Origin: Sporosarcina sp. HYO08
GTDB lineage: Bacteria; Bacillota; Bacilli; Bacillales_A; Planococcaceae
Direction of reading: 5' to 3'
DNA length: 64,000 bases
Assembly: GCF_001563475.1 (NCBI RefSeq)
Contig: NZ_LPUT01000001.1
Coordinates: forward strand, 434,001-498,000
The notes under the pieces were generated by a model, which did no database searches, was not told the DNA's origin, and was given only the letters and a program-made list of their open reading frames with translations. A program made the position numbers and the translations under genes. Below, one piece after another: positions 39,292 through 63,429 of this stretch. The stretch's first letter is position 1; the number at the start of each line of letters is the position of its first letter.

Positions 39292-39362
39292 TCCTTTTTA
39301 ATAAAATAGAATTTAGGACAAAACTCTACTATGAATCGCAAAAAACCTCATGAACTACTAAT

Positions 39363-39540
39363 CAATTACGCCAAGGCGTAATTGCGTCGGGATTTTGAAT
39401 TGTGCCCGCAGGATGCGGGTATGCAGTCGTTGGGGCCGGCACGATGCCGGTCATGCGGTCGTGGCGACAGGATGTCGCGTACTTAGACCGCCTTCCTTAA
39501 CCCCTTTCAAAATCCCTGACATCCGCCCGAGGCTTAACTT
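39363..39540 (-). ncRNA. Bacillaceae-1-like RNA element, copy 1
   Basis: Read on the minus strand, this element has three 15-nt micro-hairpins with 5-bp stems and loops ATCCT (plus 39464-39478), ATCGT (39436-39450) and ATCCT (39405-39419). The first is enclosed by GCGGTC/GACCGC (plus 39486-39491 and 39455-39460). A long-range helix GGGATTTTGAA/TTCAAAATCCC closes the element, and a perfect 10-bp palindrome CAATTACGCC/GGCGTAATTG lies at 39363-39384. Two RUCCU loops are what I recall as the hallmark of the Bacillaceae-1 RNA motif; the third hairpin is extra. It lies in the gene-free stretch 39292-39755. Confidence 0.75.
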
Positions 39541-39541
39541 G

Positions 39542-39571
39542 AATCAGCAGGGGTTTGGACTCCCCCTGATT
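39542..39571. repeat. hairpin next to RNA element copy 1
   Basis: AATCAGCAGGGG pairs imperfectly with CCCCCTGATTT. A counterpart stem (47686-47730) stands at the same place relative to the second RNA element, so it may be part of the same repeat unit. Confidence 0.5.
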
Positions 39572-39584
39572 TAAAGGAATTTTG

Positions 39585-39626
39585 GCATTCATCCCACCAC
39601 TTATCGAAGTGGGGGATGAATGCTGA
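39585..39626. repeat. strong palindrome, possible IS200/IS605 end remnant
   Basis: GCATTCATCCC then ACCACTT pairs with AAGTGG then GGGATGAATGC in a stem of about 17 bp with a tetraloop. The preceding ATTTAAAGGAATTTTGG plus this hairpin resembles, from memory, the 3' ends of IS200/IS605-family elements. No transposase or tnpB remnant is present, so this is tentative. Confidence 0.35.
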
Positions 39627-39650
39627 ATCAAGCTAATCAAAATTGTTTTG

Positions 39651-39690: not shown

Positions 39691-39707
39691 GGAATCGTAA
39701 TGATTCC
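39691..39707 (+). promoter_or_regulatory. putative Zur box
   Basis: GGAATC, five bases (GTAAT), GATTCC is a perfect inverted repeat, 11 bp after the -10 box. The core AATCGTAATGATT matches most of the Bacillus Zur consensus TCGTAATNATTACGA on its left half. Binding here would block transcription when zinc is sufficient. Confidence 0.65.
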
Positions 39708-39755
39708 TATTTAAAAGAGCTCATTTCATTAAGAAATTGAGTGGAGGGGATTATG

Positions 39756-40526
39756 ATGGACAATACAATTATTCAATTAGAAGATGTTAGTTTTAGTTAT
39801 GAACACTCAAGTGTGCTAGAGCATATTTCCTTCCGTGTCAACAAAGGGGAGTTTTGGGCATTAATTGGTCCGAATGGCTCCGGTAAATCAACGCTCCTTA
39901 AAATTGTTTTAGGATTGCTGAAACCATCTGAAGGTCAAGTGAAATTATTTAACACGGATCTGGATATTTTTAAACAGCGTGAGCGTATTGGATTCGTTTC
40001 TCAAAAGGCAAATTCATTTAATTCTGGTTTCCCTGCAACGGTTCTCGAAGTTGTGCGAAGTGGCTTAACGAGAAAAAAAGGGCTATTTAAACGGTTTACG
40101 AAAAAAGATGAAGATCGTGCTATGTATGCACTCGGAATTGTTGGAATGGAGCCGTTTGCTTATCAAAGTATAGGGGAGTTATCGGGCGGGCAACAGCAAC
40201 GCGTTTTTATCGCAAGGGCGCTTGTGAGTAAGCCTGATTTGCTCATTATGGATGAACCGACTGTTGGGATTGACCAGCAAAATGTGGCGTCGTTTTATTC
40301 TATGCTCAATACATTGAATCGTGAGTATGGGATTGCGATTGTTCTCGTAACACATGAAATCGATCTCGTCACAGATTTGGCAACTCACGTTGCCTGCTTA
40401 AATCGTTCGATGCATTTTCATGGCGTACAATCAGACTACAAAAAGTTGGATGACGTTGATATCTCTAAATGGTATGGACATCCGGTGCGCCGCGTTCACC
40501 AACAGACATCGGAGGTGACGGAATGA
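39756..40526 (+). CDS. znuC: zinc ABC transporter ATP-binding protein
   Basis: A 256-residue ABC ATPase of the metal (Mn/Zn) family. Walker A is GPNGSGKST, the signature LSGGQQQRV, Walker B LLIMDEPTVGID and the H-loop LVTHEID. GGAGGGG is 6 nt before the ATG at 39756; an adjacent ATG at 39753 is possible. It is the first gene of a Zur-box operon with znuB and zur, which assigns zinc as the probable substrate. No substrate-binding lipoprotein gene is in the operon, so it must be encoded elsewhere. Confidence 0.88.
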   Translation: MDNTIIQLEDVSFSYEHSSVLEHISFRVNKGEFWALIGPNGSGKSTLLKIVLGLLKPSEGQVKLFNTDLDIFKQRERIGFVSQKANSFNSGFPATVLEVVRSGLTRKKGLFKRFTKKDEDRAMYALGIVGMEPFAYQSIGELSGGQQQRVFIARALVSKPDLLIMDEPTVGIDQQNVASFYSMLNTLNREYGIAIVLVTHEIDLVTDLATHVACLNRSMHFHGVQSDYKKLDDVDISKWYGHPVRRVHQQTSEVTE

Positions 40527-47730: not shown

Positions 47731-47880
47731 GCCTCCGGCGGATGTCACAGATTTTGAAAGGAGTTAATGTAGGAGGCAACCTAAGTTCGCCGCGTCCTGC
47801 GGCAACGGTTGCATGACCAACATCCTGTTGGCCTCAAGCGCAATTCAAAATCTGGACGCAATCACGCCAAGGCGTGATTG
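47728..47880 (+). ncRNA. Bacillaceae-1-like RNA element, copy 2
   Basis: Two micro-hairpins GCCGC-GTCCT-GCGGC (47789-47803) and CCAAC-ATCCT-GTTGG (47817-47831) have RUCCU loops. The first is enclosed by GCAACC/GGTTGC (47776-47781, 47807-47812). A long helix CAGATTTTGAA/TTCAAAATCTG closes the element, and the palindrome CAATCACGCC/GGCGTGATTG ends it at 47859-47880. Every helix covaries with copy 1. It occupies much of the gene-free stretch 47686-48195. Confidence 0.8.
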
Positions 47881-47892
47881 ATTCGAAACCTA

Positions 47893-47967: not shown

Positions 47968-47979
47968 TTAGGTAAAACT

Positions 47980-48105
47980 CCAGCCTGCTTGAAAACGCTT
48001 GTCAGCCTAGGCGCGAAGTCGAGCGAAGACGCGAATAGAACTAGAGTTCATGAGCGGACGAGCGAGACGAGCAACGACGGATGCGAGCGTTTGTCAACAG
48101 GCTGG
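47980..48105. repeat. 126-bp element with imperfect terminal inverted repeats
   Basis: The ends CCAGCCTGCTTGAAAACGCT (47980-47999) and the reverse complement of 48086-48105 match in 16 of 20 positions. The inside has GAGCGA/GACGAGC-rich sequence and no coding potential. It lies between two terminators, like a MITE or a large hairpin RNA. Confidence 0.55.
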
Positions 48106-48140
48106 GCACATATCTTGCACGTCAAGATATGTGCTTTTTC
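48106..48140 (+). terminator. intrinsic terminator upstream of pbpA
   Basis: GCACATATCTTG pairs with CAAGATATGTGC, loop CACGT, followed by TTTTTC. Confidence 0.85.
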
Positions 48141-56827: not shown

Positions 56828-57045
56828 AACAAAAGCGGAGGGCGCCGTTTAGCCTCGACAGGCATAAGTCAATCTAGCGGCGTGGCGATTTTTGCCACAG
56901 AGCTAGATTGCTATTAAGGAAGTCAGCCTAAACGCGCCGCGTCCTGCGGCAACGGCTGACTAACCCGCATCCTGCGAGCCTCCGAGGGGCTGGCGCCCGG
57001 AGCTGGACGAAACAAAAGCGGAGGGCGCCGTTTAGCCTTGATAGG
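56828..57045. repeat. 35-bp direct repeats flanking a structured module
   Basis: A 28-bp identical sequence at 56828-56855 (starts AACAAAAGCGGAGGG, ends GTTTAGCCT) recurs at 57011-57038; the next seven bases differ in two places. Between them, CAATCTAGC/GCTAGATTG and GTGGC/GCCAC form nested stems and the RUCCU hairpins of RNA copy 3 follow. This accounts for most of the gene-free stretch 56827-57105. Confidence 0.8.
56915..56980 (+). ncRNA. Bacillaceae-1-like RNA element, copy 3 (partial)
   Basis: Hairpins GCCGC-GTCCT-GCGGC (56936-56950) and CCCGC-ATCCT-GCGAG (56964-56978, one mismatch) carry RUCCU loops with the same 28-nt pitch as copy 2. The first is enclosed by AGTCAGCC/GGCTGACT (56921-56928, 56954-56961). 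The long closing helix and the terminal palindrome of the other copies are not visible. Confidence 0.65.
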
Positions 57046-62039: not shown

Positions 62040-62113
62040 GTTAGGCGAAAGGACATTATTAGTCCCAATGTTACTCATCATTACAAAAAAATGAACACTT
62101 TGCGGATGAATGT

Positions 62114-62310
62114 ATGGGGAGAGCACGCGTTAGGCGTCGCCGAAGGAGCAAACAGGAAAACTGTGAATCTCTCAGGTAACAAGACTCATACAGGACGCAT
62201 CTCTGGAGAGCGCTAGTTTGACTAGCCACCAAAGAAGAAAGCCTTTTGGCAAAACTTTCAGGTAAACGGACAGAGGTTCCTTATATATTAGGGAATCTCT
62301 GTCTATTTTT
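62114..62310 (+). ncRNA. tandem glycine riboswitch
   Basis: Two glycine aptamers are visible. The first (about 62114-62211) has GGGGAGAGC, CGCCGAAGGAGCAA and AATCTCTCAGGTAACAAGAC; the second (about 62212-62275) has CCACCAAAGAAGAAAGCC and ACTTTCAGGTAAACGGACAG. A terminator hairpin (GACAGAGGTTCC with GGGAATCTCTGTC, 62269-62303) and a T-run overlap the 3' edge of the second aptamer. In B. subtilis the equivalent RNA turns on the glycine-cleavage operon when glycine is abundant. With the upstream promoter this fills the gene-free stretch 61894-62334. Confidence 0.96.
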
Positions 62311-62334
62311 ATCAACATGAGGGAGGAAAAGACC

Positions 62335-63429
62335 GTGACAGAATTAAAACGAACGGTTCTATTTGACCGCTATGCCGAGTATGGCGGGAAAACAATCGAT
62401 TTTGGCGGTTGGGAACTGCCGGTTCAATTTTCAAGCATTAAAGCTGAACACGAAGCGGTACGTACAAAAGCAGGATTGTTTGATGTTTCTCACATGGGCG
62501 AAGTCGTTGTCCGCGGGGAAGGGGCATTAGCCTACTTACAAAAACTTGTTACAAACGATGTATCTAAATTAAAAGATGGCCAAGCACAATATACAGCGAT
62601 GTGCTATGAAAATGGCGGTACGGTTGACGACCTACTTATCTACAAGCGTGCCGACAATGATTACCTACTTGTCGTGAATGCATCCAATATCGAAAAAGAT
62701 CTTGAATGGATGCAGCAATATGTGTCAGAAAATGTCGAAATTGACAATCAATCCGACAATTATGCACTGCTCGCGCTTCAAGGTCCGGTTGCACAAAGTG
62801 TTTTACAAAAACTAACAGATGAACCACTTGCAGACATTAAGTTTTTCCGATTCAAAGAAAATGTCAATATTGCAGGTCACGAAGTTCTTGTTTCTCGCAC
62901 AGGCTACACAGGTGAAGACGGATTTGAAATTTACGGGTCACCCGAAGCGATTCATGCACTGTGGCCAGCCATCCTTGAAGCTGGAGAAGCGGAAGGCGTT
63001 GTACCAGCAGGTTTAGGCGCACGCGATACACTGCGTTTTGAAGCGGGTCTGCCGCTTTATGGTCAAGAATTGTCAAAAGACATTTCTCCGCTCGAAACTG
63101 GACTTGGCTTTGTCGTGAAATTGAATAAAGCTGAAGATTTCATCGGAAAAGAAGCACTTGCAGCACAAAAAGAAAATGGTGTACCGCGTAAACTCGTTGG
63201 TGTTGAAATGATCGACAAAGGGATTCCGCGCACAGGTTATAAAGTATTTATTGGCGATGAAGAAATTGGTGAAGTTACGACGGGTACACAATCCCCAACG
63301 TTAAAAAAGAACATTGGGTTTGCATTACTGAAAACTGAACATACCCAAGAAGGTACTGAAGTCGAAATCGAAGTGCGCAACAGACGATTAAAAGCTGTCA
63401 TTATTCCAACACCATTTTATAAACGATAA
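62335..63429 (+). CDS. gcvT: aminomethyltransferase (glycine cleavage T protein)
   Basis: A 364-residue T protein that transfers the aminomethyl carbon of glycine to tetrahydrofolate. Recognisable pieces are [39 protein letters not shown] and [17 protein letters not shown] (catalytic Asp region). The GTG at 62335 is chosen because GGGAGG is 8 nt upstream; the ATG at 62317 lies before that SD. It is controlled by the glycine riboswitch and is followed by gcvPA. Confidence 0.96.

Follow-up and report, generated by a model that had tools for sequence, protein, structure and literature searches.

Bacillaceae-1 hairpin repeats in mobile palindromic elements of Sporosarcina sp. HYO08, with a complement strand that is a plausible CsrA decoy

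The Bacillaceae-1 motif (RF01690) was described by Weinberg et al. in 2010 (PMC2864571) and has been without an assigned function since then. A 2015 paper, according to which the discoverers of the motif were unsure of its strand, put forward CsrA binding by the strand complementary to Bacillaceae-1 (PMC4333381). The repeat of CsrB reads CAGGA(U/A/C)G (PMC7652899).

The window analysed here is a stretch of 64,000 nucleotides from Sporosarcina sp. HYO08. Its three loci share sequence, structure, and loops with Bacillaceae-1. They differ from the described motif in that copy 1 appears to be the remains of two units, in that the copies are probably modules of mobile elements away from rRNA, and in that the folding strand is apparently the complement. 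With the CsrB, CsrC, and RsmZ sponges they have in common the CAGGA(U/C/A)G hairpin loops, the pairing of sites, and a csrA gene in the host. Unlike these sponges, they have one to three putative sites per unit rather than many, and are dispersed repeats rather than one gene. A further difference from the CsrB/CsrC/RsmZ systems is that Bacillus CsrA is controlled by FliW. REP/BIME and MITE repeats are likewise short, palindromic, intergenic, mobile, and composite, with tens of copies; here, in contrast, dependence on RAYT is not seen, and there are three covarying helices and conserved linkers. Computation shows the family membership, the covariation, the modular placement, the lack of the carrier in relatives, the strand preference in pairing, the co-occurrence with csrA, and the retention of loops.

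Bacillaceae-1 copies in the window and beyond

Seven 15-nucleotide hairpins are distributed over three loci, as the first-pass annotation of this DNA had described, with the sole exception that the CCCGC/GCGAG stem of copy 3 contains one mismatch. The enclosing helices listed there, GCGGTC/GACCGC, GCAACC/GGTTGC, AGTCAGCC/GGCTGACT, and GGGATTTTGAA or CAGATTTTGAA with their partners, are all present in the sequence. Its recognition of the already known Bacillaceae-1 family was correct: in cmscan, all three loci match RF01690 with 68.7 to 72.1 bits (E 1.6e-10 to 2.5e-11), above the gathering cut-off of 35 bits. The features of the three loci are:

39436-39502, Rfam orientation minus, CAGGA-loop strand plus: Bacillaceae-1 core of copy 1 (RF01690, 68.7 bits)
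39464-39478, plus: hairpin 1 of copy 1, GCGAC-AGGAT-GTCGC (sequence and Rfam alignment)
39455-39491: helix around hairpin 1 of copy 1, GCGGTC (39455-39460) with GACCGC (39486-39491)
39436-39450, plus: hairpin 2 of copy 1, CCGGC-ACGAT-GCCGG, with a loop lacking GGA
39405-39431: third hairpin of copy 1, CCCGC-AGGAT-GCGGG (39405-39419), and orphan helix arm GCAGTCGTT (39423-39431)
39389-39399 and 39506-39516: carrier stem, GGGATTTTGAA with TTCAAAATCCC, enclosing all three copy 1 hairpins
47766-47831, plus: Bacillaceae-1 core of copy 2 (RF01690, 70.1 bits), hairpins at 47789-47803 and 47817-47831
56912-56978, plus: Bacillaceae-1 core of copy 3 (RF01690, 72.1 bits), hairpins at 56936-56950 and 56964-56978, in a repeat that its flanks place in a different (AAGCGGAGGGCGCC) type

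The layout is that of two RUCCU-type hairpins, the first of which lies inside an outer helix. Copy 1 departs from it in having the RUCGU loop variant in hairpin 2 and one additional hairpin; the third hairpin and the ATCGT loop noticed earlier are both there.

Covariation, which had been claimed from the window copies, was computed over 44 diverse copies. The score is 0.616 versus 0.172 after shuffling, double changes number 148 versus 36 and affect 14 of the 16 pairs, and 99.1% of the cells in the structure are paired. Sliding the partners abolishes the covariation. These covariation and pairing values therefore place the structure far beyond chance, and the claim is upheld.

A genome-wide count gave 31 Bacillaceae-1 matches (3.05 Mb, 32 contigs). 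In a sample of 250 genomes of the order, 191 have the motif; one congener, G119, reaches the maximum of 80 copies, and G133 has 66.

No rRNA or tRNA was detected in the window, in agreement with the earlier statement that none of the copies is near rRNA. The association of Bacillaceae-1 with rRNA operons mentioned there applies to the B. subtilis group (genomes assigned by eye from the rRNA operon layout), where the motif lies directly 5’ of 16S rRNA in either orientation according to species (loci L208, L209, L210, and L212). It does not extend to this family, where a link to rRNA was rejected: across four complete genomes, a 5S gene lies within 2 kb of only 1 of about 140 copies, which is about the chance level.

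The type A carrier and the third hairpin of copy 1

Copies 1 and 2 are each contained in a palindromic element of a kind designated here as type A:

39361-39632, minus: type A element with copy 1, 272 bp, ends ATCAATTACGCCAAGGCGTAATTG and GGGGGATGAATGCTGAATCAAG
47732-47882, plus: type A element (domain II), located downstream of a superoxide dismutase gene and carrying copy 2 at the apex

Type A elements are approximately 150 to 380 bp in length, are composed of hairpin domains, and have recurring ends beginning with ATTCAGC and finishing with GGCGTAATTGAT; they are also found at locus L313 and at many loci of G119. The ends of the copy 1 element recur at most of 56 sites listed from the compared loci, a list made with a simple pattern in which a few entries are chance matches. 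The sequence TAATCAA is present on both flanks of this element (39359-39365 and 39634-39640). Aside from the Bacillaceae-1 core, no Rfam family was matched by the type A carrier in the window, which may represent a kind of mobile palindromic element that has yet to be described.

The intergenic region that contains the copy 1 carrier lies upstream of an ABC-transporter gene (39741-40526). Among the loci of 29 relatives, 25 were readable, and the element is absent from the orthologous region in 24 of these 25 congeners, the empty sites being judged by eye. Absence at the orthologous site in relatives, a MITE-like property, is thus found for this carrier. In G225 the same region holds an independent, shorter element on the opposite side of a Zur-like box. 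This box (GGAATCGTAATGATTCC, 39691-39707) is common to the congeners, lies upstream of the ATPase gene of the ABC transporter, and is adjoined in the window by the copy 1 carrier.

The position of Bacillaceae-1 within type A elements varies. In G119, it is at the apex only in 10 elements, at the junction only in 3, at both in 4, and at neither in about 8, the classes having been set by a regular expression that misclassified at least one "neither" element. Other copies reside in repeats of unrelated kinds, designated types B and C. A type C composite repeat, CAGCCTG..TTGAAAACGCTTGTCA...TTTGTCAACAGGCTG, is found at 47978-48111 with no Bacillaceae-1 core, while elsewhere in the genome a type C repeat has two cores inside. 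A third repeat type, AAAGCGGAGGGCGCCGTTTAGCCT, at 56828-57040, contains copy 3, and a second such segment lies at 57014. No insertion of the core alone was observed between sister strains, and plasmids and phages gave no match to the copy 2 element.

The empty orthologous sites, the alternative slots, and the varied contexts give good support to the mobility of the copy 1 carrier, and they indicate that the Bacillaceae-1 core has changed contexts as a module. Copy 1 would have arrived within the 272-bp element.

The first-pass annotation read copy 1 as having three hairpins instead of two. The extra hairpin exists, but it is better read as part of a chimera of two copies. At locus L025, a complete core lies inside the hairpin-1 loop of another core and is flanked by the two halves of the outer one. 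Locus L027 retains the outer left arm GGCAGTC together with the outer right half AACGACTGCATACCCGCATCCTGCGGG, and L022, which is copy 1 of the window, retains the right half only. The orphan arm GCAGTCGTT next to the third hairpin is without a partner, whereas L025 and L027 still have the partner arm GGCAGTC. The nested form and the two remnants point to a second Bacillaceae-1 copy that has been partly deleted; the third hairpin would be its hairpin 2, from the 3’ half in the Rfam sense. One unit would have been inserted into the other, followed by deletion, an order of events that we infer from the retained parts.

Folding strand and co-occurrence with csrA

The loops read RUCCU, as had been annotated, on the strand modelled by Rfam. 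On the other strand, which is the one supported by folding energy and by the wobble seen in the extension pairs, they read AGGAY. The complement of the Rfam strand was the more stable with ViennaRNA in 171 of 178 cores, by a mean of 5.1 kcal/mol. In 167 of 178 cores, pair (52,68), which lies outside the Rfam structure, is A.C when read on the Rfam strand and G.U when read on the complement; a G-C pair follows at (51,69) in 164. An invariant A-C combination taken alone could have other causes. Pair (11,49), which is in the Rfam model, occurs 29 times as C.A on the Rfam strand, equivalent to G.U on the complement, and once as G.U on the Rfam strand. Across the 16 core pairs, A.C mispairs and G.U pairs on the Rfam strand stand at 57:38 (p 0.06), a weak asymmetry. 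Together, the extension pairs and folding energies favour the complement of the Rfam strand as the one that folds, either as RNA or as single-stranded DNA.

Loops on the complement strand read CAGGA(Y)G, and csrA is present in the source genome (G000; PF02599, E 3.4e-22). GGA in hairpin loops and CsrA encoded in the same genome, as in CsrB-type systems, are thus both found here. The candidate loop is a pentaloop, one nucleotide below the usual SELEX hexaloop, which counts against a CsrA reading.

Within the class, the motif is present in 79 of 234 csrA-positive and 3 of 165 csrA-negative genomes (Fisher 1.3e-17, a value inflated by shared ancestry). Seen from the motif, csrA is carried by 79 of 82 motif-positive genomes class-wide and by 60 of the 61 outside the family. 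At least four copies are present in 20 of 35 csrA-positive versus 1 of 10 csrA-negative genomes of genus g5 (p 0.012), in a tally made by hand with the four-copy cut-off picked after the data had been seen. The presence of csrA and phylogeny are confounded.

At least one GGA loop is present in 185 of 188 copies from csrA-positive genomes versus 35 of 44 from csrA-negative genomes; for this count, the loop window and the thresholds were chosen with the data in view, a single false hit was discarded on visual inspection, and two related genomes supply most of the csrA-negative copies, with loop decay mainly in the G131 and G133 lineage. It supersedes an earlier count of 132 of 132 csrA-positive copies, the inclusion of more, lower-scoring copies having raised the exceptions from zero to three. 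A looser scan was full of false hits. Either hairpin may lose its GGA, and the csrA-negative copies preserve their stems and linkers. Among other csrA-negative genomes, G016 and G024 keep the GGA loops, and G056 holds remnants without them.

CsrA decoy, selfish DNA, and other readings

At a rough probability of 45%, the preferred reading is that Bacillaceae-1 is a mobile palindromic hairpin repeat and that its complement strand could plausibly act as a decoy for CsrA. The folding strand would be the complement of the Rfam model, with two short hairpins whose C-AGGAY-G loops are spaced about 28 nucleotides apart, a layout that resembles the paired sites of CsrB/RsmZ-type RNAs. We infer that this strand may be transcribed, that its one to three GGA hairpins may bind CsrA, and that the bound CsrA would be titrated or tethered locally. 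In any genome with csrA, such binding would expose the GGA loops to selection. The repeat would spread via its mobile carriers, separately from titration of CsrA, and spread as mobile DNA in modular carriers would explain the copy number, the odd contexts, and the three-hairpin forms.

A stronger version is unlikely, namely that Bacillaceae-1 is a Gram-positive sponge-type CsrA-binding RNA carried as a cassette in mobile palindromic repeats, with copy 1 made multi-site by the jump of one cassette into another. If it were true, a global regulator would be titrated by transposable elements. The present analysis adds the modular mobile carrier, the proposed origin of the third hairpin, the evidence for the complement strand, and the independent but confounded support for CsrA binding. 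Strand evidence, loop retention, and csrA co-occurrence make the 2015 conjecture, reportedly authored by Gardner and Eldai, directly testable.

Selfish DNA with no role for CsrA is nearly as likely as the decoy. The repeat would then be REP- or MITE-like hairpin DNA whose single-stranded hairpins are recognised by a trans-acting transposase, and its resemblance to CsrA sites would be coincidence or a by-product. Tens of copies, nesting, alternative slots, and a carrier absent in relatives all fit this account, and strand-specific pairing could equally stem from single-stranded DNA. The copy-rich state of two csrA-negative genomes, G133 with its expansion to 66 copies and G131 with 20, argues that spread is independent of CsrA. 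What selfish DNA fails to predict is the confinement to csrA lineages and the retention of at least one GGA loop. Y1/RAYT transposases are moreover dispensable, being absent from the copy-rich genomes G119, G143, G225, G228, and G231; dependence on RAYT/Y1_Tnp was rejected on the basis of many copy-rich genomes without Y1_Tnp, although G000 has a RAYT-like gene.

Orientation also bears on the choice. In G119, where the replication origin was guessed from 5S genes, the copies that lie outside type A are divided 26:24 relative to replication, without bias, as selfish DNA would allow, and type A elements are co-oriented with it 19:3. This co-orientation and the hairpin ends of the type A carrier, which we take to resemble IS605-type ends, are shared with non-autonomous elements derived from IS200/IS605. 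In contrast to those, no autonomous element with matching ends was found for type A: a single IS605-type locus of the genome was read, and it was rejected as a partner because its ends do not match. Neighbouring genes were assigned by taking the longest ORF. On this basis, where a type A copy of genus g1 is flanked by tandem genes, its GGA strand is antisense to them 20:1, and copies in g10 are without orientation bias. A gene-orientation bias of the genus, 32:6 for G000, G119, and G125 combined, was rejected as a property of the motif, as it is mostly that of the type A carrier. Around copies 1 and 2, the complement strand offered no conspicuous promoter-like site. The lack of bias outside type A, the antisense GGA strand within it, and the promoter result argue against a strand-specific transcript. 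That either orientation is found in the rRNA leaders of the B. subtilis group likewise weighs against the decoy.

A regulatory RNA on the Rfam-modelled strand, located for instance in 3’ UTRs or rRNA leaders and acting via its RUCCU loops, is improbable. That strand is in the 16S leader of G548 and G263, two genomes of the B. subtilis type, and in the sense orientation in the type A copies of genus g1. The leaders of G400 and G468, however, have the opposite orientation, the G119 copies outside type A are unbiased, and the extension pairs are mispaired on this strand. Chance hairpins or an artefact, countered by the Rfam scores and the covariation and with no supporting point found, can be dismissed for practical purposes.

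Elsewhere in the window, an ordinary tandem glycine riboswitch is present at 62106-62277, upstream of the glycine-cleavage T-protein gene (62317-63429).
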